From IMG/VR virus record IMGVR_UViG_3300030101_004471, positions 1-45,034 of that record: 45,034 nucleotides of DNA. One strand, written 5' to 3'. A model generated the notes under the pieces. The model saw nothing but the letters and a program-made list of their open reading frames with translations, searched no databases and was not told where the DNA came from. Origin of the DNA: a virus. Made by a program: the position numbers and the translations under genes. How positions within the stretch are numbered: position 1 is the first letter of the stretch; every line of letters starts with the position of its first letter. Shown here piece by piece: positions 13-45,034 of this stretch.

Positions 13-75
13 GCCGGTCGATTGCGACCGGCGCGCCGCGGCTCGCGGCCCGGGCCGCTAGCAAACGCTAGCAAG
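13..75. repeat. GC-rich palindromes and short tandem repeat
   Basis: Positions 13-32 form a perfect 8-bp stem (GCCGGTCG/CGACCGGC) with an ATTG loop. Positions 45-58 are a perfect 14-bp palindrome (GCGGCCCGGGCCGC). Positions 56-65 and 66-75 are a tandem repeat of CGCTAGCAA plus A or G. No T-tract follows, so these are not ordinary intrinsic terminators. Being close upstream of terL they could belong to a packaging recognition region, but the sequence alone does not show this. Frame 1 is open from 1 to a TAA at 94-96, so part of this may instead be the end of a gene entering from outside the window. Confidence 0.5.
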
Positions 76-117
76 GGCCATGTTTCTGACAAATAATCCT
101 GTGAAAAATGATATGAC

Positions 118-133
118 TGTTTCACGTGAAACA
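118..133. promoter_or_regulatory. parS: Perfect parS-type ParB binding site
   Basis: The 16 bases TGTTTCACGTGAAACA are a perfect palindrome and match all 16 positions of the conserved bacterial chromosomal parS consensus bound by ParB/Spo0J. The site lies in the noncoding region 109 bp before terL. No parA or parB gene is present in the window, so the likely ligand is the host ParB or a phage ParB encoded elsewhere. Other CACGTG hexamers in the window lie inside genes and lack the flanking arms. The match is seen directly; binding and function are inferred. Confidence 0.85.
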
Positions 134-154: not shown

Positions 155-169
155 GTTCAATACTTGTTC
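155..169. promoter_or_regulatory. LexA-like (SOS) box, alphaproteobacterial type
   Basis: GTTC at 155-158 and GTTC at 166-169 are separated by exactly seven bases, the direct-repeat form GTTC-N7-GTTC described for LexA of alphaproteobacteria. The second GTTC overlaps the predicted -35 hexamer of the terL promoter, a position from which a repressor would block transcription. An eight-base match is expected about once by chance in 45 kb counting both strands, so the support comes mainly from its location. Confidence 0.45.
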
Positions 170-192
170 ACTGCCAAATAAATGTGCATATT
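164..192 (+). promoter_or_regulatory. Predicted sigma70-type late promoter for terL operon
   Basis: TTGTTC (164-169) and CATATT (187-192) are spaced by 17 bases, as in sigma70 -35/-10 elements; each is an imperfect match. It points to terL, whose ATG is 34 bases after the -10. The -35 overlaps the LexA-like box, and the -10 lies inside the inverted repeat at 183-200. Confidence 0.4.
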
Positions 193-200: not shown

Positions 201-226
201 GTATTTGACCATTTCAGGGGCCCCCG

Positions 227-1672
227 ATGGATGTATCTGATCAGGAGTTAAAGCTTAAACTCCGTCTCGCTCAGATCGAGAAAAGAGAAGCTTGTCAGGA
301 CGAGTTTCTTCCGTTTGTAAAATCTATGTGGCCGGAGTTCATAGCTGGCAGGCACCACCACATAATCGCTGAAAAGCTTGAACGTGTGGCGAGCGGCGAT
401 CTCAAGCGCCTGATCATCAACATGGCCCCGAGGCACACGAAGTCTGAGTTCGCATCCTTCTTGTTTCCGGCATGGATGATGGGCAAGAACCCGAAGATGA
501 AAATCATTCAGGCTACCCACACGACGGAACTTGCGGTTAACTTTGGACGTAAGACGAAAAACTTGATTGACAGTGACGAGTACAAGGAGGTGTTCCCGGA
601 TGTTAAATTGGCTGCTGACAGTAAAGCTTCTGGTCGTTGGGACACTGCTTCTGGCGGGATGTACTACGCCGTGGGGGTGGGATCCAACCTTGCCGGGCGT
701 GGTGGCGACTTGGTGATTATCGATGACCCGCACTCGGAGCAGACGGCCATGTCGGCCAACGGTTTTGATGATGCGTGGGACTGGTACACCGGGGGCCCCC
801 GGCAGCGTCTCCAGCCGGGCGGCAGTATAGTTCTGGTCCAGACCCGGTGGTCCGAGAAGGACATGACGGGGCAGTTGCTCCGTGCAATGGCTAAAGATCC
901 GCTAGCAGACCAGTGGGAAGTTGTAGAGCTCCCAGCCATTTTTGATGACGACAAGCCCTGTTGGCCGGAGTTCTGGTCTCTTGAGGATTTGACCGCGGTC
1001 CGCGCATCTATACCTCCGAGCAAGTGGAACGCGCAGTATCAGCAGAACCCGACGGGCGAGGAGAACGCGATCATTCCTCGTCAGTGGTGGAAGAAGTGGG
1101 AGAAGGACAACATCCCGAATCTGGAATATGTAATCCAGAGCTATGATACGGCGTTCTCGAAACGCGAGACTGCCGACTATTCGGCGATCACGACTTGGGG
1201 TGTTTTCAGGCCAGAGGAGATTGGGGGCCCTCCGGGACTCATACTTTTGGACAGCACGAAGGGGCGGTGGGACTTTCCTGATCTCAAACAAAAGGCTTTG
1301 GAGCAGTATAAGTATTGGGACCCCGACACCGTCATCGTAGAAGCCAAGGCTTCTGGTATGCCTTTGACTCACGAACTACGAAACATGGGGATTCCTGTTG
1401 TTAACTTTACGCCTAGTAAGGGTAATGATAAGGTTACGCGAGTTCATTCTGTATCGCCGTTGTTTGAAGCGGGCATGGTTTGGGCCCCCGACACCACCTT
1501 CGCCGACGAGATGATTGAGGAGGTGGCGGCGTTCCCTAACGGGGAGCATGACGACTTGGTCGATAGCATGACGCAGGCTTTGATGCGTTATCGGCAGGGG
1601 AACTTTGTACAGTTGCCCAGTGACGATTGGGACGATGAGGACACGGGAATGCAAGTTAGGGCATATTACTGA
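227..1672 (+). CDS. terL: Terminase large subunit
   Basis: ATP-driven motor and nuclease that packages phage DNA through the portal. The N-terminal ATPase shows a Walker-A-like loop APRHTKSE (about residues 67-74) and Walker B LVIIDD (162-167). The C-terminal RNase-H-like nuclease shows the acidic residues expected: D307 in SYDTAF, E372 in VEAKASG and D442/D443 in HDDLVDS. The 481-residue length is normal for the family. The ATG at 227 has an AGGGG Shine-Dalgarno six bases upstream. It heads the long plus-strand virion operon. No small terminase gene is seen beside it; upstream is noncoding control DNA. Confidence 0.97.
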   Translation: MDVSDQELKLKLRLAQIEKREACQDEFLPFVKSMWPEFIAGRHHHIIAEKLERVASGDLKRLIINMAPRHTKSEFASFLFPAWMMGKNPKMKIIQATHTTELAVNFGRKTKNLIDSDEYKEVFPDVKLAADSKASGRWDTASGGMYYAVGVGSNLAGRGGDLVIIDDPHSEQTAMSANGFDDAWDWYTGGPRQRLQPGGSIVLVQTRWSEKDMTGQLLRAMAKDPLADQWEVVELPAIFDDDKPCWPEFWSLEDLTAVRASIPPSKWNAQYQQNPTGEENAIIPRQWWKKWEKDNIPNLEYVIQSYDTAFSKRETADYSAITTWGVFRPEEIGGPPGLILLDSTKGRWDFPDLKQKALEQYKYWDPDTVIVEAKASGMPLTHELRNMGIPVVNFTPSKGNDKVTRVHSVSPLFEAGMVWAPDTTFADEMIEEVAAFPNGEHDDLVDSMTQALMRYRQGNFVQLPSDDWDDEDTGMQVRAYY

Positions 1673-6908: not shown

Positions 6909-7106
6909 GTGGATGAAGTCTTCTTTGCTGACGCTGTCCTACGAATTGTAAGGGACAGGCGGTTGACAGTTCAGGACTCGTTGGTTTACGACAACGTCAA
7001 GAACATGGAGCAGTATCGTGAGCTCATGGGCAATCTCAAAGCCCTAGATCACGTGGAACAGGAACTCAAGAGCCTGCTAGATAAACAGGAGCGCAACGAT
7101 GGTTGA
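6909..7106 (+). CDS. Small helical hypothetical protein
   Basis: 65 residues beginning with a GTG directly after the endolysin stop; it overlaps the start of the GroES-like gene by eight bases. The sequence is charged and predicted to be almost entirely helical, ending in a short coiled-coil-like stretch (about 36-62). No family is recognised. The tight packing with neighbours supports it as a real gene. Confidence 0.6.
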   Translation: MDEVFFADAVLRIVRDRRLTVQDSLVYDNVKNMEQYRELMGNLKALDHVEQELKSLLDKQERNDG

Positions 7107-7539
7107 TCTTGCTGGTGCCTCAGAGGGCGCTGAAAACTTGGCATCTGCATATGTAGATGTAACGACGGACAAGAAACTGGACCCCGAGGCCATCGGTGGT
7201 TCTCTCCTAGAAAGAATGCCAGATCCCACTGGTTGGCGGCTGCTCATTCTTCCCTATCGGGGAAAGGGCAAAACTGACGGGGGTATTTATCTTCCGGACA
7301 AGGTTGTTGAGGAAAGCACCGTGTCCACGCAGGTGGGTTACGTCTTAAAAGTCGGAAAGCTGGCATATAAGGATTCCGAGAAATTTCCGTTTGGCGCGTG
7401 GTGTAAGCAGGGCGATTGGGTCATGTTTGCGCGGTATGCGGGCTCGCGGTTTCGGATAGACGGCGGGGAAGTCAGGATTCTTAACGATGATGAGATTCTT
7501 GCACGGATCAAAGAACCCGAAGACATTCTTCATTTCTAG
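7099..7539 (+). CDS. GroES-like co-chaperonin
   Basis: Phage version of the 10-kDa lid of the GroEL chaperonin. After an N-terminal extension of about 40 residues, the Cpn10 fold is recognisable: a mobile loop with GGIYLP (61-66, corresponding to GGIVL in bacterial GroES), a beta strand VGYVLKVGKLAY, the GDWVMF strand (105-110) and the C-terminal DDEILARI (130-137). It lies directly before scaffold and capsid genes, so it probably recruits host GroEL to fold the capsid protein, as gp31 does in T4. No GroEL gene is present. Confidence 0.88.
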   Translation: MVDLAGASEGAENLASAYVDVTTDKKLDPEAIGGSLLERMPDPTGWRLLILPYRGKGKTDGGIYLPDKVVEESTVSTQVGYVLKVGKLAYKDSEKFPFGAWCKQGDWVMFARYAGSRFRIDGGEVRILNDDEILARIKEPEDILHF

Positions 7540-15984: not shown

Positions 15985-18288
15985 ATGGCACTGGTTCTAA
16001 AGGACCGCGTCAAGGAGACGACCACTACCACCGGCACTGGCACATATACTTTGGCCGGTGCCGTTGCTGGTTTTGAGGCATTCTCTGAGATAGGTAACTC
16101 CAACACCACCTACTATTGCTGTACTGACGGCACTGACTTTGAGGTTGGTATCGGCACATACACAGCGTCTGGCACAACTCTTTCACGATCTGACGCTAAC
16201 GTCTTGCAGTCTAGCAATAGTGACAACCGTGTTGACTGGGGTGCAGGAACAAAAACAATTTTTTGCACGCAGCCAGCAGAGAAGGCGGTGTTCCTCGACG
16301 GAAGTAACAACATCTCGATTCCCGGCACGATTGATGGCCGTGATCTTGCTACTGATGGGACAAAACTCGACGGCATAGAGGCAAGTGCTACTGCTGATCA
16401 GACAGCAAGTGAGATACGCACACTCGTTGAAAGCGCGAGTGATAGCAACGTCTTTACTGATGCTGACCATACCAAGCTGAACGGTATCGAAAGTAACGCT
16501 ACCGCAGATCAGACAGCGTCTGAGATAAGGGCGTTGGTAGAGAGTGCTAGCGACAGCAATGTATTTACTGACGCTGACCACACCAAGTTAAACGGTATCG
16601 AAGCCAGTGCAACCGCAGATCAAACTGCGGCTGAAATTCGTACACTCGTGGAAAGCGCAAGTGATAGCAACGTCTTCACCGACGCTGATCACACGAAATT
16701 GAATGGCATTGAAGCCTCCGCAGACGTAACTGATACAGCGAATGTCACCGCCGCTGGCGCGTTGATGGATAGCGAGGTTACTAACCTTTCGCAGGTTAAA
16801 GCCTTCGACTCATCTGACTTTGCTACCGCAGCACAAGGGTCTACCGCAGACGCGGCCATGCCGAAGGCAGGGGGTACGTTTACCGGCGATGTAACCTTCA
16901 CTGGCGATAGTGCTAATATCGTCTTCGACAAGTCTGACGACGCACTAGAGTTTGCTGACGATGCAAAGGCAGTATTTGGTACTGGCGGCGATTTAGAAAT
17001 TTTTCACAATGGTAGTTCCAGCTTTATAAAAGACGTAGGCCAAGGCAATCTACTCATGGATGCTACTGCCATTTCTCTTAGAAACGAGAATGGGCTGGCA
17101 ATGATACAGTTCTCTGCTTCTGGTTACGCTGAAATGAAATTTGGCACCAGTTCCACAGAGACAAAAATTAGAACAAAATCTACTGGTGTAATTGTTACAG
17201 GCGAAGTAGAAGCAGGAAGCCTAGATATATCTGGCGATGTAGATGTAGACGGCACGCTAGAAGCAGACGCTATAACATTAAATGGCACGTCTTTGGCAGC
17301 TTCCGCTACAACTGACACCACTAATGCAAGCAACATTGGGTCTGGCACCCTACCCAACGCCAGACTGGACGCGCAGCTTCAAGATGTAGCTGGCCTTGCC
17401 GTGACGAACGGCAACTTCATTGTCGGTGACGGCAGTAATTTCGTCGCCGAGTCTGGCTCTACAGCCAGAACTAGCCTTGGCCTTGGTACAGCAGCCGTGC
17501 TGGATACGGGCATATCGAACACAAACGTGCCGAAGTTCACCAGTGGCGTGGCTGACAACGATTTCTTGCGAGTGGACGGTACTGCCATTGAAGGTCGTTC
17601 TGCTTCGGAAGTCCTGTCTGACATAGCGGCCATGCCGCTTGCTGGCGGTACATTTACAGGCGATGTTACGCTGACAGATACCGCTACAGGGTCTGCTGCG
17701 GGGCCGCTTTTGGTGCTGCGCCGTGATAGCTCAAGTCCTGCTGATGACGATAACCTTGGACGAATACAATTTAAAGGCGAAAACGACGCTGATGAAATTT
17801 TTGAATACGCAAGAATCACTGGAAAACTGCTTGATAACACGGACGGCACAGAAGATGGCGGCTTAGTTTTTTCTGTAGCTACAAATGGATCGGCTTCCTC
17901 GAACCGTATGAATCTGCAAGGTTCTGGCGACACTATATTTTCTAATCAAGACGTTAAACTCAACACTGACGTAGATTTAAAATTTGAAGGCGCAACCGCT
18001 AACGATCACGAAACCACGCTGACAGTCACCGACCCAACCGACGGCCGCACCATCACGTTGCCCGACGCCACCGGCACGGTTGCTTTGACATCAGACATAC
18101 CATCTTCTGGCATTTCTAGTGGAAATGTAGCTACATTCACATCTGGCGCTGCCGACAACGACTTTTTACGGATTGACGGCACTGCTGTCGAAGGCCGTTC
18201 GGCGTCAGAGGTCCTATCCGATATTGGTGCAACAACCGCCGCAGCGGCAGCAGACGAAGCCACGGCATTAGCCATTGCGCTTGGATGA
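15985..18288 (+). CDS. Large tail fibre protein with 37-residue repeats
   Basis: 767 residues. Region 1-127 is a beta N-terminal domain. Three 37-residue repeats (128-164, 165-201, 202-238) with the core TADQTASEIR and NVFTDADHTKLNGIE follow, then a fourth broken copy. Later there are GGTFTGDVT modules and a duplicated segment containing DNDFLR-[VI]-DGTA-[IV]-EGRSASEVLSDI (about 515-545 and 720-750). No S74 or lyase domain is present. Probably a trimeric host-binding fibre. It ends with an Ala-rich helix. Confidence 0.85.
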   Translation: MALVLKDRVKETTTTTGTGTYTLAGAVAGFEAFSEIGNSNTTYYCCTDGTDFEVGIGTYTASGTTLSRSDANVLQSSNSDNRVDWGAGTKTIFCTQPAEKAVFLDGSNNISIPGTIDGRDLATDGTKLDGIEASATADQTASEIRTLVESASDSNVFTDADHTKLNGIESNATADQTASEIRALVESASDSNVFTDADHTKLNGIEASATADQTAAEIRTLVESASDSNVFTDADHTKLNGIEASADVTDTANVTAAGALMDSEVTNLSQVKAFDSSDFATAAQGSTADAAMPKAGGTFTGDVTFTGDSANIVFDKSDDALEFADDAKAVFGTGGDLEIFHNGSSSFIKDVGQGNLLMDATAISLRNENGLAMIQFSASGYAEMKFGTSSTETKIRTKSTGVIVTGEVEAGSLDISGDVDVDGTLEADAITLNGTSLAASATTDTTNASNIGSGTLPNARLDAQLQDVAGLAVTNGNFIVGDGSNFVAESGSTARTSLGLGTAAVLDTGISNTNVPKFTSGVADNDFLRVDGTAIEGRSASEVLSDIAAMPLAGGTFTGDVTLTDTATGSAAGPLLVLRRDSSSPADDDNLGRIQFKGENDADEIFEYARITGKLLDNTDGTEDGGLVFSVATNGSASSNRMNLQGSGDTIFSNQDVKLNTDVDLKFEGATANDHETTLTVTDPTDGRTITLPDATGTVALTSDIPSSGISSGNVATFTSGAADNDFLRIDGTAVEGRSASEVLSDIGATTAAAAADEATALAIALG
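16366..16698 (+). repeat. Three 111-bp repeats inside the fibre gene
   Basis: Three tandem units of 111 bp encode the 37-residue repeat with few amino-acid changes but many synonymous changes, so the repeats are kept at protein level. A fourth, degenerate unit starts at 16699. Such repeats in trimeric fibres usually form a regular stalk. Confidence 0.85.
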
Positions 18289-39035: not shown

Positions 39036-40054
39036 TGGCTACGTTTCGCACTGATCCGAGGACGGGAAGAGCTACGATTAGCTCCGGGAACATTGTCCGG
39101 GCTGATGGACGCACGGATAATGAGAGATCTCAGATGGCTTCGCAGTTCACTGCGGATCCGGGGCAGGAACAAAGCTACCGGCAGGCTGAACGAGACTATC
39201 AAGGGTTTTTGCAGTCTAGCGGGCGCTCATCTACCAACCCGTATGGGGACGCAGGAGTTTTTGGTGGAGGAGTCAACTTCAGCGGTATAATGACTCCGCG
39301 GCAAATCGAGGATGTCAATCGATTAGCTTACAATCAGTATCTTGGGCTTGCATCTGGTCGGGGCACTCAAAGAGGCGGGATAGGCGATTTCATCCCCGGT
39401 TATGCTCCCGCCCTCAAGATAGGCTCAAACACCCCTAGAGGAAGAGTAGTCGCAGCACCCACTCAACCCAAGCAGGGCGGCATATTTAGTTTGTCGCCTA
39501 CTTTGGGGATTTTACGAAACTTGTTTGGTCGCGGTAACATACTACGAACATTAGATGATGGTGGTGGTGGTGTAGATTATAGCGCCGAGGGTATCGAGAC
39601 GTTGGACGTTTCACCACTAGAAAAAACAACTCCGGGGTATGACACGCTAGCGGGGGAAAACTTATTTAACCTCGGACCCTTCGTGCAAGTTGCTCAGCAA
39701 GATTCTGAAGCCTTCGCACAAGCTCAAGCCCTCGCGGACCAAGATCGAACTCAACTTGAATATCCAACGGTTGAAGATCGGGGCAGCTTATATGGGAGAT
39801 CAAACCCGATCCCTGTACAAAGAAAATCTTTGTATGAAGGGTTAGCTGCTCCCGGCACAGGACTTCGTCTTGAGGACATTACAGGGCCCACTAGAAACAC
39901 GGACTTGTCCGACCTGTCGGATTCTGCGAGCTTTGGAAACCCATACGCGACAACCGTCGGCCCAGACGGCACGTTGATTACCGGAGCTTTCGTTCCTAGA
40001 CGAGTTGAAATCGGCCCAGACGGTACGTTAATTGAAGTCCCGGTTGGTTTCTAA
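39035..40054 (+). CDS. Last virion-operon protein, unknown function
   Basis: 339 residues, Gly/Ser/Arg-rich and probably partly disordered. It starts in an overlap with the preceding gene after AGGGAG. Notable segments are GGGVNFSGIMTPRQIEDVNR (about 76-95) and two copies of GPDGTLI near the C-terminus (about 310 and 329). It ends convergently with the helicase gene, their stop codons overlapping. Likely a minor virion protein by operon position; no family recognised. Confidence 0.65.
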   Translation: MATFRTDPRTGRATISSGNIVRADGRTDNERSQMASQFTADPGQEQSYRQAERDYQGFLQSSGRSSTNPYGDAGVFGGGVNFSGIMTPRQIEDVNRLAYNQYLGLASGRGTQRGGIGDFIPGYAPALKIGSNTPRGRVVAAPTQPKQGGIFSLSPTLGILRNLFGRGNILRTLDDGGGGVDYSAEGIETLDVSPLEKTTPGYDTLAGENLFNLGPFVQVAQQDSEAFAQAQALADQDRTQLEYPTVEDRGSLYGRSNPIPVQRKSLYEGLAAPGTGLRLEDITGPTRNTDLSDLSDSASFGNPYATTVGPDGTLITGAFVPRRVEIGPDGTLIEVPVGF

Positions 40055-40061
40055 ACCAACC
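40042..40061. terminator. Palindrome over convergent stop codons, possible bidirectional terminator
   Basis: GGTTGGTTT (40042-40050) and AAACCAACC (40053-40061) form a perfect 9-bp inverted repeat spaced by two bases. It contains both stops, TAA of the plus-strand gene and TAG of the helicase, and encodes the last residues of each protein. There is no clear T-tract on either side, so termination may be weak or assisted. Confidence 0.4.
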
Positions 40062-41499
40062 ACTCCCGAGCCTCTTCACCCAACACCTGACCAGCGAGAT
40101 TGATCTTGTTGCGTAGAGCTTTCAGGATCTTCTCGTCAATCGTGCCCGGCGACACCAGATCGATATATGTCACCTTGTTCTTTTGCCCGATGCGATGCGC
40201 TCGGTCCTCGGACTGTAGGCGCGTAGCTAGGTCATAGCTGTTGTTGTAGTAGATGACAGTTTTGGCTTCGGTCAAAGTGATGCCCATGCCACCGGTCAAC
40301 GGCTGGCCCACAAAGAAGCGCAGCTCGCTGTACGGGTTTTCAAACTGGTCAACGATGGCCTGTCGCTCGTCTTGTGGCGTTGCGCCATAATAGGTTGCGA
40401 CCGCTTCGGGCCCAAAGCGGTCGCGCAGGGCCGAAGCTATCTGTTGAATGCCGTGGGTATACGACGCCCAAATGATTGCTTTTCCCTGAAGCTCTTCTGT
40501 AATGTCCAATAATTCATTCAGCCGGTTGTTCTCGATGGGCTGTACCTCGCCCTCGTCCGGTTGCAGGAACCCACAACATATCTGTTGCAAACGCATGATT
40601 TGCGTCAGGACGCTGGCAGTCGTAGCCAGCTCACCATTGTCTAGTTTTGCCAGTGCCAGCTTTTTCATTTGTACGTACAGGCGCTTCTGCTCATCGGTCA
40701 GCGGCACATCCCGCCGCGTGTACAGCTTGTCTGGCAGGTCAAGGCAATCCTCTTTCAAGACGCGGTTGCTGAACCGGTCCAGCCTCTCGTTGAGCTCATC
40801 CAGCCTGCGGTAGCCCACAATCTCTTGGAATGCCCGGTTGCCCATCTTGCGGTTCTGCACCACGGCATACCGGTTCTGGAAAGCGAAGTAGCTCTTGAAG
40901 CTGAGCGCAGCGTCAGACAGGAAGGCGCACTGACTGAACAAGTCCATCGGGCTCCTAGTAATCGGCGAGCCTGTCAGGATGCGTTTGTATTTGGCAAAGT
41001 CCGATAACTTGATGATATTCTTCGTGCGCGTTGCTTTGCGATTTTTGATGGTCGTGCTCTCGTCTACTACCATAATGTTGTCTGGAAACTTTTGTAGAAA
41101 GGCAACCGCCGCCTTGGTGCCACGAGATGTAGACAACGCTTCGACATTCATAACGAATATCCGCAACCCGCGAAACTCGCCAAACAGGAAATCCCACATC
41201 TCGTCCTGATACTTCTTGGTGTTGACGGGCGTCCAGCGCATGATCTGCCGCTCAATGTCGTCTGGGAGATGTGTAGGAATTTCTCCTTTTACCCAGTTGT
41301 CATACACGCCCTTCGGTGCCACTATAAATGCGGCGTTGATCTTCTCCATCATGTGTAAGACGCCGATGGTATCGATGACCACCTTCGACTTGCCTGTTCC
41401 CATCTCCATGAACAGCGCATAATACTCCGCGGCCCACGAATCTGTGAGTGCCTGCCTCTGGTGATCAAACGGTTCAGTCTTGAACTTGTACTTTTTCAC
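40051..41499 (-). CDS. SNF2-type DNA helicase/ATPase
   Basis: 482 residues from a GTG at 41499, chosen because an AAGGAGGAA site (41503-41511) lies five bases before it and a promoter just upstream. Superfamily 2 motifs are clear: Walker A MGTGKS (33-38), motif II DEST (146-149, instead of DEAH), motif III LTGSPI (175-180), and motif VI EDRAHRIGQ (431-439). Phage SNF2 helicases are linked to replication or recombination; the exact role here is unknown. It is the only minus-strand gene and is transcribed away from the early operon. Confidence 0.93.
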   Translation of the reverse strand: MKKYKFKTEPFDHQRQALTDSWAAEYYALFMEMGTGKSKVVIDTIGVLHMMEKINAAFIVAPKGVYDNWVKGEIPTHLPDDIERQIMRWTPVNTKKYQDEMWDFLFGEFRGLRIFVMNVEALSTSRGTKAAVAFLQKFPDNIMVVDESTTIKNRKATRTKNIIKLSDFAKYKRILTGSPITRSPMDLFSQCAFLSDAALSFKSYFAFQNRYAVVQNRKMGNRAFQEIVGYRRLDELNERLDRFSNRVLKEDCLDLPDKLYTRRDVPLTDEQKRLYVQMKKLALAKLDNGELATTASVLTQIMRLQQICCGFLQPDEGEVQPIENNRLNELLDITEELQGKAIIWASYTHGIQQIASALRDRFGPEAVATYYGATPQDERQAIVDQFENPYSELRFFVGQPLTGGMGITLTEAKTVIYYNNSYDLATRLQSEDRAHRIGQKNKVTYIDLVSPGTIDEKILKALRNKINLAGQVLGEEAREWLV

Positions 41500-41509
41500 A
41501 ACTTCCTCC

Positions 41510-41538
41510 TTGACTATGCGAAAATATAGGCATATATA
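41510..41538 (+). promoter_or_regulatory. Predicted early promoter (plus strand)
   Basis: TTGACT (41510-41515) and TATATA (41533-41538) are spaced by 17 bases and point to the gene at 41591. The -35 lies within the ribosome-binding region of the helicase transcript. The element overlaps the opposing promoter, so both cannot easily be occupied at once. Confidence 0.5.
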
Positions 41539-41550
41539 CATGTCTGTCAA
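41523..41550 (-). promoter_or_regulatory. Predicted strong promoter for the helicase gene
   Basis: On the minus strand TTGACA (41545-41550) is a perfect -35, followed by 16 bases and TATATT (41523-41528) as -10. Transcription would start near 41516, only about 17 bases before the helicase GTG and just ahead of its strong ribosome-binding site. One of the best sigma70-type promoters in the window. Confidence 0.7.
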
Positions 41551-41590
41551 GACCCGATAGGTGTCTTTAATCACGAAAAAGGAATCACGA

Positions 41591-42169
41591 ATGAGTAACA
41601 TTTTCGATCAAATGGAGGCTGACTTTGAAAACAAGTTGGCCTCTTCCGTTGAGAAACTCGATCAGGGTGACTTAACGACAGTAGCTGGATTAGCCAAAGC
41701 TATCCGCGATCAAGAAGAGGCGATTGCAAACCTTGAGGCCGATCTCAAGCAAGCAAAGAAAAGCCTGATGAAGATGACGGATGAAGACCTGCCGACCATG
41801 TTGGCAGAGATTGGACTTTCCAGCATGACGCTTGATGATGGCTCAGAAGTCTCTGTCAAGCAGACCTACGGGGCATCCATCCTCGTAGACAACCGTCCTA
41901 AAGCATATCAATGGCTCCGTGACAACGGATTTGGCGACATCGTCAAGAACACCGTCTCATGCTCGTTTGGCATGGGTGAAGACGAGAAGGCTGAGCAGTT
42001 CCGTTCGATTGCGGAAGAGCGTGGCTATCTTGCTGAGCAAGATACGTCTGTACACTCGTCTACCTTACGCGCTTGGGTTAAGGAGCGCGTGGAAAACGGA
42101 GACGACTTCCCTATGGAGCTTTTCGGTGCATATGTAGGACAACGAGCCATCATTAGGAGGAAAAAATAA
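41591..42169 (+). CDS. Coiled-coil early protein, unknown function
   Basis: 192 residues from the ATG at 41591, placed eight bases after an AAAGGA site; an upstream in-frame ATG at 41561 would lie between promoter and site and is less likely. A coiled coil (about 40-75, EEAIANLEADLKQAKKSL) leads to a compact alpha/beta domain with ASILVDNRPKAYQWLRDNGF and a C-terminal region (WVKERVENGDDFPMELFGAY) followed by a basic end. It is the first gene of the early operon, before an SSB-like gene, so a role in DNA replication or recombination is probable. No family named. Confidence 0.75.
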   Translation: MSNIFDQMEADFENKLASSVEKLDQGDLTTVAGLAKAIRDQEEAIANLEADLKQAKKSLMKMTDEDLPTMLAEIGLSSMTLDDGSEVSVKQTYGASILVDNRPKAYQWLRDNGFGDIVKNTVSCSFGMGEDEKAEQFRSIAEERGYLAEQDTSVHSSTLRAWVKERVENGDDFPMELFGAYVGQRAIIRRKK

Positions 42170-42960: not shown

Positions 42961-43058
42961 CCAGTTGGGGCGACCAGCATCACTAACTGCGGGATGGAGC
43001 TTCGGCTTCAGTTAAGGCGGTCGGGGTGCAGGTCGTCCCATCCTTCACGGGGACAAAC
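42961..43058 (+). other. Leader between SSB-like gene and primase, with UUCG hairpin
   Basis: This 98-base gap holds no gene. TAACTG (42984-42989) pairs with CAGTTA (43009-43014), and inside it AGC-TTCG-GCT forms a cUUCGg tetraloop hairpin; TGGAGC/GCTTCA (42995-43010) is an alternative six-pair stem. No T-tract follows, so it is not an intrinsic terminator. It could stabilise or separate mRNA segments. Confidence 0.4.
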
Positions 43059-44597
43059 ATGTCTGTACAAAAGTTTTCATCCATTTTTGACGGTCTCAAG
43101 ATCGCCTATGGCACATATAAAATCGAAAAACAGCAGGCTAACGGTAAGAACACGGGCAAAGCTGCCATTATACGCGAACCGCGGGACACGGCCCTGTGGG
43201 AAGGACACCTGTCCGGTAAAGGACGGGGCATTGGCATCATCCCTATCAACGAGGACAACAAGTCTGTCTGGGGCTGCGTAGACGTTGACCAGTACCCGCT
43301 CGACCATAAGGTTCTAGTCGAGAAAATCCGCAAGCTGAAGCTGCCTCTGGTCGTCTGCCGGTCAAAGTCCGGCGGGGCGCATTGCTTCCTGTTCACCACC
43401 GAGTGGGTGGATGCCAAGGACATGCAGGCCACGCTGCAACAAATATCCGCTGCGCTGGGCTATGGCGGCAGTGAAATCTTTCCAAAACAGATCAAGCTCA
43501 ATCTTGACCGCGACGATGTCGGCAATTTTCTGAACCTGCCGTACTACGACGCCGAGGACGGGCTGCGATACGCCATTAAAGATGACGGCACCTCTGCCAC
43601 CATTGAAGAGTTTTTTGAGCTTTACGAGAGCTACAAGCAGACGCCCGAGCAACTGATGGCGCTACAGGTGGGCGATCCTGAAGAGGTATCGCCCATGAAG
43701 GACGGCCCACCGTGTCTTCAGTTCCTGCTCAAGAACAAGATATCCGAGGGTGGCCGCAACAACGGGCTGTTCAACATCGGCGTCTATCTGCGTAAGGCAT
43801 ATCCGGATAGCTGGGAATCGGAGATTCTGACCTACAACTTGCAGTATCTGGAGCCGCCGCTGCCGCTTAGCGAGGTCAACATCGTTGCCAAGCAACTTGA
43901 GAAGAAGGACTACGTCTACCGGTGTAGCGACTCTCCGATAAACGCGCACTGCAACAAGGACCTGTGCCAGACCCGCAAGCACGGCATCGGTGCAGCCATC
44001 CAAGGCGCGGCCATCGCGAACCTTCGCAAGTACAACTCAAACCCGCCGGTCTGGTTTTTAGATGTCAACGGTGAGCCCGTCGAGCTGGATACAGAAGCTC
44101 TGATGAGCCAAGCCGCATTTCAGAAATGCTGCATGGAGCAGCTTAATTTCATGCCCCGGTCTGTCAGCAAGCAGGTCTGGGAGGGACGCATAGGCGGTCT
44201 AATGAATGAGATGCGGGACAATGAGAGCGCCATCATAGATGTCGCCGAAGACGCCAGCATAAGCGGCCAGTTCTACGATTATTTAGAAGAGTTCTGCGCT
44301 CATATGCAAAAGGCAAACGACAAGGAAGAGATACTGCTCAAACGCCCGTGGACCGACGAAGAAACTAACAAAACCATGTTCCGAATAAAAGACTTTGAAG
44401 CATATCTCAAGCGTAACAAGTTCTTTGAGTACAAGCTGCACAAGATCGCCCAGCGCCTGCGGGACATGGGGGCACAGAGTCGCCTGATGAAGATCAAGGG
44501 CAGGCCCGTGCGAGTGTGGGAAATACCCGCTTTTGATAACGCAGACGTAGACATTAACACGCCATCTTTTGGCAGTGGTGAAGGAGCACCTTTCTGA
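43059..44597 (+). CDS. Archaeo-eukaryotic-type primase (PrimPol-like) with PriCT-type C-terminus
   Basis: 512 residues from the ATG at 43059; a GTG at 43026 lies in poorly conserved leader sequence. The AEP catalytic core shows the metal-binding DxD (D75 and D77 in CVDVDQ) and the SxGxH nucleotide-binding motif (S104 to H108 in SKSGGAH). A PriCT-like helical domain follows (about 225-275, EGGRNNGLFNIGVYLRKAYP), then a Cys/His cluster (CSDSPINAHCNKDLC, about 291-305) resembling a zinc-binding motif of TOTE-type primases. It should prime, and possibly extend, DNA. The end GEGAPF is acidic-hydrophobic. Confidence 0.85.
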   Translation: MSVQKFSSIFDGLKIAYGTYKIEKQQANGKNTGKAAIIREPRDTALWEGHLSGKGRGIGIIPINEDNKSVWGCVDVDQYPLDHKVLVEKIRKLKLPLVVCRSKSGGAHCFLFTTEWVDAKDMQATLQQISAALGYGGSEIFPKQIKLNLDRDDVGNFLNLPYYDAEDGLRYAIKDDGTSATIEEFFELYESYKQTPEQLMALQVGDPEEVSPMKDGPPCLQFLLKNKISEGGRNNGLFNIGVYLRKAYPDSWESEILTYNLQYLEPPLPLSEVNIVAKQLEKKDYVYRCSDSPINAHCNKDLCQTRKHGIGAAIQGAAIANLRKYNSNPPVWFLDVNGEPVELDTEALMSQAAFQKCCMEQLNFMPRSVSKQVWEGRIGGLMNEMRDNESAIIDVAEDASISGQFYDYLEEFCAHMQKANDKEEILLKRPWTDEETNKTMFRIKDFEAYLKRNKFFEYKLHKIAQRLRDMGAQSRLMKIKGRPVRVWEIPAFDNADVDINTPSFGSGEGAPF

Positions 44598-45034
44598 TGA
44601 AAGACCGTAACGATTACATTTACGAGCAGCGCGTGGTGCAGCTCCGCACATATCAATCCATCGCGGATGAGGTGGGCCTGTGCCGCGAGCGTATACGCCA
44701 AATCGTAGTTGCAGTGTCTCAGCGCATCCGCTGGGAGCAAGAGATTGAAGCCTTGCCGGACAAACCGCATAAGATGTGCCACCTCGTCCTGCCCCGCAGG
44801 GTCCGTAACTGCCTCAAGAACGAATTTCTATTCGATCTGACATTCGAGGAGTTCATCGAATACGCTGAAAATAAGAAGCTCGACAACATACCCAACCTCG
44901 GCAAGGGCAGCATCTCGTTGCTCGAAACGCGGCTCGCGGAACAAGGCCATGTCTTGCCCAAGCGGCTACGTAGCAAAGCCAGCCTACTTCGAGATGTAGT
45001 TCAATCCAAACGCGAGGCCCGATACGCCAAGTAT
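44597..45034 (+). CDS. Sigma-region-4-like and alpha-CTD-like regulator (partial at window end)
   Basis: At least 146 residues, open at the window end. The ATG overlaps the primase stop (TGATG) and follows AAGGAG. Residues about 16-46 (TYQSIADEVGLCRERIRQIV) match the sigma70 region 4 helix-turn-helix that reads -35 elements, including the RERIRQI core. Residues about 95-117 (LDNIPNLGKGSISLLETRLA) match the helix-hairpin-helix-like part of the RNA polymerase alpha C-terminal domain (compare NLG-[KR]-KSL). The combination suggests a phage transcription regulator contacting promoter DNA. If the window is joined end to start, the frame continues to a TAA at 94-96. Confidence 0.75.
   Translation, partial: MKDRNDYIYEQRVVQLRTYQSIADEVGLCRERIRQIVVAVSQRIRWEQEIEALPDKPHKMCHLVLPRRVRNCLKNEFLFDLTFEEFIEYAENKKLDNIPNLGKGSISLLETRLAEQGHVLPKRLRSKASLLRDVVQSKREARYAKY

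Follow-up and report, generated by a model that had tools for sequence, protein, structure and literature searches.

A phage genome fragment carries a perfect bacterial chromosomal parS site in front of its terminase gene, and we consider with moderate confidence that this site is a selected orphan centromere of host type, loading host ParB onto the phage DNA for positioning, separation or condensation. There are no binding data for this reading, and the benefit in cis is inferred. The whole stretch of DNA analysed, hereafter the window, is 45,034 nucleotides long and is a linear fragment from a virus; comparison with two relatives (G002, G029) puts the full genome at ~57 kb. A sequence scan places TGTTTCACGTGAAACA at positions 118-133, exact on both strands, as the single copy in the window even with up to two mismatches allowed, and as its sole perfect 16-nt palindrome. 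This sequence matches the bacterial consensus at 16 of 16 positions; it is the parS of ParB biochemistry and crystallography, preferred by all ParBs tested (PMC7383237). The Noc binding site TATTTCCCGGGAAATA (PMC7383237) was also considered as the identity of the 16-mer and did not match. Base composition predicts 9.5e-6 exact copies per window and 4.8e-8 per 226-nt leader. The site is non-coding, with 109 nt separating it from the ATG of terL at 227 (terminase large subunit, 227-1672, plus strand; PHROG 38, E 4.7e-108, and Pfam Terminase_6C). An earlier note on this DNA had claimed an exact consensus parS, a noncoding position before terL and an expectation of ~1e-5 copies in 45 kb, all of which hold. 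Its description of a late-control region is only an inference; the promoter-like element of the window is weak.

The leader around the site is heterogeneous. Before parS, at the contig break, lies a GC-rich, hypervariable stretch rich in inverted repeats (1-62, no strand assigned), and contigs of many relatives likewise stop 100-600 nt upstream of terL. The contig stops and the hypervariable stretch suggest a genome end, a packaging site or an assembly break caused by repeats. Immediately 5' of the terL start codon there is a AGGGGCCCCC motif (216-225, plus strand) that recurs in relatives; motifs of the GGGGNCCC type occupy the terL leaders of the window (216-225), HTVC027P, HTVC023P and 023Pt_psg01.

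Comparison with relatives offers the most direct view of the constraint on the site. Of 80 IMG/VR loci with close TerL relatives, 65 have the site intact or with a single mismatch, and several others are cut at the contig end. Divergence was taken from 42 distinct leaders anchored on the left-flank block CATGTTT[CT], in order to avoid selecting on the site itself; the conserved leader block GGGCCATGTTTCTGACAAATAATC (75-98, plus strand), common to clades A and B, served as alignment anchor. The per-base divergence of the 16-mer is 0.0075, as against 0.18 in the left flank and 0.26 in the right flank, indicating that purifying selection acts on the 16-mer. The anchored set excludes leaders with a clean deletion of the site, of which there are three (L022, L059, L065), all with the promoter-like block kept; single mismatches occur in L006, L007 and L071, one each. 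Anchoring replaced a MAFFT alignment of whole leaders, in which column conservation had ranked the clade A site as average; that alignment included site-less leaders, and indels and the GC-rich hypervariable stretch misplaced the site. At least one exact copy is present in all 11 clade A and B records of 40 kb or more (the window, G001-G006 and G026-G029), and the reversed 16-mer pattern has zero matches in the same records. The check proposed in the earlier note, on conservation of the 16-mer amid drifting flanks, thus came out in favour of its claim, which survives the refuting condition set there; even the variants are natural parS sequences.

Variation at the site is itself informative. 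In clade B, the sister clade with a TerL ~85% identical, the site lies at -67 to -102. Many members have a second palindrome, TGTTCCACGTGGAACA, 24 bp from the consensus site, which it may precede or follow; in some members TGTTCCACGTGGAACA is the only one of the two. It equals parS2/parS3 of P. aeruginosa, the perfectly palindromic sites that ParB binds with highest affinity (PMC4368675), and two Verrucomicrobia MAGs each have two copies of it, separated by 798 bp. The clade B change is a symmetric T5C/A12G swap yielding another natural parS; the turning of one natural parS into another is as predicted by selection for ParB binding.

The site is absent from a part of the relatives. In clade C, 70 of 80 loci have no site at one mismatch or less, many of them being truncated. 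No site was found in the cultured phages HTVC023P, 023Pt_psg01 and DSL-LC04, nor in the cultured relatives CRP-901, CRP-902, CRP-810, Pkon1, Pam1, MinM2, S0112, P2559Y and two Manatee Spring phages. A blastn search of cultured phages with the 16-mer flanked by N returned no match and is uninformative. As some relatives are site-less, the benefit of the site cannot be universal.

It is generally established that the ParB clamp loads at parS, slides along the DNA, stimulates ParA and recruits SMC. Formation of the CTP clamp at parS and engagement of ParA have been restated (PMC12704722). On the phage genome, host ParB would bind the 16-mer, close as a CTP clamp and slide onto flanking phage DNA. 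The ParB-coated genome may then engage host ParA and/or SMC, upon which the host segregation machine would position, separate or condense phage genomes in the cell. Binding by the ParB of the actual host is inferred, and so is the view that the main effect is a benefit in cis through positioning, separation or condensation, and the choice among genome positioning, ParB titration and late-gene timing is undecided.

Sites of this kind extend well beyond the relatives of the window. Exact TGTTTCACGTGAAACA occurs in at least 120 IMG/VR viral contigs, with 132 distinct flank contexts among the matches listed; 26 of these contigs, again among the matches listed, have a TerL at least 50% identical to that of the window. 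Only 5 of ~119 known positives recur among the listed matches, indicating that ~4-7% of the collection was covered, and from this recurrence the total is estimated to be probably in the low thousands of contigs. The Pseudomonas-type TGTTCCACGTGGAACA is likewise found in at least 120 contigs (113 contexts among the matches listed), so that across IMG/VR each natural parS form occurs in a large number of unrelated contexts. A composition-matched control palindrome is present in 54 contigs of the whole collection; its 25 contexts all fall within open frames. A further control, the palindrome TGTTCTACGTAGAACA, has at least 120 matches; of the 120 listed, 75 belong to one family whose flanks are almost identical, 103 fall within long open frames, and the contexts number 34. 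It is an imperfect control, dominated by one coding sequence, and comparison of total counts between palindromes is indirect, only part of the collection being covered for the palindromes with at least 120 matches. As an observation apart, TGTTCTACGTAGAACA is frequent in marine viral contigs (L528 and following loci), with a small cluster after ttgtgtaacacaa that resembles a regulatory site. ParB_N was unmatched in 46 of 50 parS-bearing viral records, many of them fragments. A second phage family (L101, L128, L133, L137, L159, L182), with TerL 27-29% identical to that of the window, has 1-5 exact parS copies, most of them in the 4 kb that precede terL, with arrays of five in L128 and L101. The balance tips slightly towards the orphan host-type parS being a widespread strategy of lytic phages, in which several unrelated lineages, abundant marine ones included, keep 1-5 copies without par genes and place their replicating genomes under host ParB, ParA and SMC.

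The number of sites per genome bears on the main rival explanation, in which the site is a decoy: hundreds of parS copies on replicating phage genomes would pull ParB, and with it SMC, off the host origin, the benefit coming from the effect on the host rather than from one on the phage genome. The two sites in many clade B members and the up to five in the second family agree with this, and the parS copies of SGI1 offer a precedent, since they stabilise SGI1 and help to drive out the plasmid that supplies their ParB (PMC10954446). However, clade A and HTVC027P have one site per genome, where arrays would be expected of a decoy. We regard titration as unlikely for the site in general, and as favoured where several sites occur.

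Position relative to terL is the second property by which explanations can be distinguished. For the majority of clade A and B members the site is within ~50-150 bp of the terL start, and its repeated return to the terL leader in both clades means that a part in regulation is still possible. A timer is conceivable in which host ParB, spreading outward from the site, would silence or insulate the terL operon until replication dilutes ParB; clamps of the ParB family can repress nearby promoters (PMC5521831, PMC11790492). The geometry is not constant, however. The window has a weak promoter-like element, TTGTTC-N17-CATATT (164-192, plus strand), absent from the output of a consensus promoter scan, and 49 of the 59 leaders of clade A have a promoter-like TTGTTAACTG-N17-CATATT whose start is 23-47 bp beyond that of the site. 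In clade A the site precedes the promoter-like element of terL, whereas in clade B it lies in the terL leader downstream of a shared TTAACTG block. Elsewhere it is kilobases away from terL: ~6.6 kb upstream in one long record (G006), 3.3-4.4 kb in the L187 subclade, and -4.06 kb in cultured HTVC027P, which has an intergenic one-mismatch site, CGTTTCACGTGAAACA, at 16412-16427. Moreover, the three leaders with clean loss of the site retained their promoter-like block. Timing of late genes by host ParB thus appears less probable again than titration.

The presence of the site is kept while its position and the promoter geometry vary, as would be expected of a clamp-loading site more than of an operator, and the promoter geometry argues against a simple fixed operator. 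A third possibility is that the 16-mer is the operator of a phage-encoded regulator which happens to recognise the same sequence. A palindrome beside a promoter is typical of operators, and a neighbouring one may be such: directly after parS, a second inverted repeat, TTGCCTAATTATTAGGCAA (134-152, no strand assigned), is possibly the operator of a phage regulator. It is found in relatives too, where it is more variable than parS; in the L030/L036/L047 group it is doubled ~42 bp apart, in an operator-like arrangement. For the 16-mer itself, the full match to parS, the tolerated symmetric swap to another natural parS and the recurrence of both forms in many unrelated contexts make recognition by a phage regulator improbable, and no HTH_ParB-type protein was found in the 19 records searched.

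Phage-plasmids carry complete par loci, and the window is a 45-kb linear fragment of a ~57-kb genome, leaving formal room for a phage-plasmid or prophage whose own ParABS lies beyond the window, an alternative raised in the earlier note. Profile searches largely refute it. ParB_N (PF02195) was not found in 12 records including near-complete relatives, nor were ParA-type AAA_31 (PF13614), HTH_ParB (PF17762) or phage integrase in 19 records; positive controls for the par and integrase profiles matched in known genomes. The searched records include 51-57 kb ones of the same clades, covering the missing part, and four cultured relatives. In the relatives, the part missing from the window encodes DNA-processing functions (a helicase and a homing endonuclease) together with terS and small genes of unknown function. 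A tyrosine integrase was not found in the window or in near-complete relatives, as judged by the integrase profile only, and HTVC027P is described as obligately lytic, with a latent period of ~18 h (PMC12753301). The carrier is apparently a lytic phage, one of a family that is abundant and water-borne. Hence the earlier statement that the window lacks parA and parB is supported by the ParB_N, HTH_ParB and AAA_31 profiles, and the search beyond the window that the same note had called for, run on near-complete relatives, returned neither gene; a self-partitioning carrier has become very hard to sustain. A chance palindrome or hitch-hiking sequence, for which only the small size of the motif speaks, is refuted by the divergence of the flanks against the kept 16-mer, the expectation of 1e-5 copies per window and the presence of the site in 11 of 11 long relatives.

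The orphan host-type centromere resembles several known systems without coinciding with any of them. It shares its 16-mer with the parS of bacterial chromosomal ParABS, and in clade B the variant has exactly the sequence of P. aeruginosa parS2/parS3 (PMC4368675), but its carrier is an apparently lytic phage that has neither parA nor parB, and its neighbour is terL instead of oriC. Another likeness is the parS that SGI1 has 'stolen' from IncC plasmids, in which a mobile element with parS and without parAB uses the partition proteins of another replicon (PMC10954446); for the phage, the use of host ParB is inferred. SGI1, in contrast, copies a plasmid parS and is kept in dividing cells (PMC10954446), whereas the phage site is of the chromosomal type and its carrier apparently lytic. 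The parABS loci of P1 and of extrachromosomal mycobacteriophages also place a centromere-like site on phage DNA, but they come with their own ParA and ParB and with plasmid-like prophages, neither of which was found for the phages of the window. In the AlpA/AlpC-alpS system of the Corynebacterium prophage CGP3, a segregation-like system positions replicating phage DNA, but every component is phage-encoded and the system is actin-based (PMC4446434, PMC5539076). No report of lytic phages with an orphan chromosomal parS was found in the open-access literature, most subscription papers and bioRxiv preprints being outside the scope of the search, and the novelty is therefore provisional.

On the host side, the SAR11 single-cell genome AG-404-L13 (G021) has one exact chromosomal 16-mer ~1.5 kb from parB and also holds a TerL relative. 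The MAG bins nearest to the terL of the window are Verrucomicrobiota (91%, 85% and 80%) and Rhodobacteraceae (85%), which is weak evidence, binning of phage contigs being unreliable; bins with terL relatives span many phyla and allow no host assignment. An alphaproteobacterial host for the window phage is thus unproven. If the centromere reading is true, it would represent a new contact between lytic phages and the host chromosome-segregation machine, common in the ocean and directly testable in the existing pair of HTVC027P and Pelagibacter HTCC1062. The 16-mer would also offer a sequence handle on the location of phage genomes in the cell, on SMC on phage DNA and on the disturbance of host segregation by phages.

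Several other genes of the window were recognised. These include a phage GroES co-chaperonin (7099-7536), an SNF2-type helicase on the opposite strand (40051-41601) and a primase with a TOTE-type AEP domain (43026-44597). Beside the primase, a truncated ORF (44597-45034) has a weak match to Sigma70 region 4 (E 4e-4, below the cut-off), and DSL-LC04 has an annotated sigma factor at the matching position, hinting at a possible phage sigma factor for late promoters.
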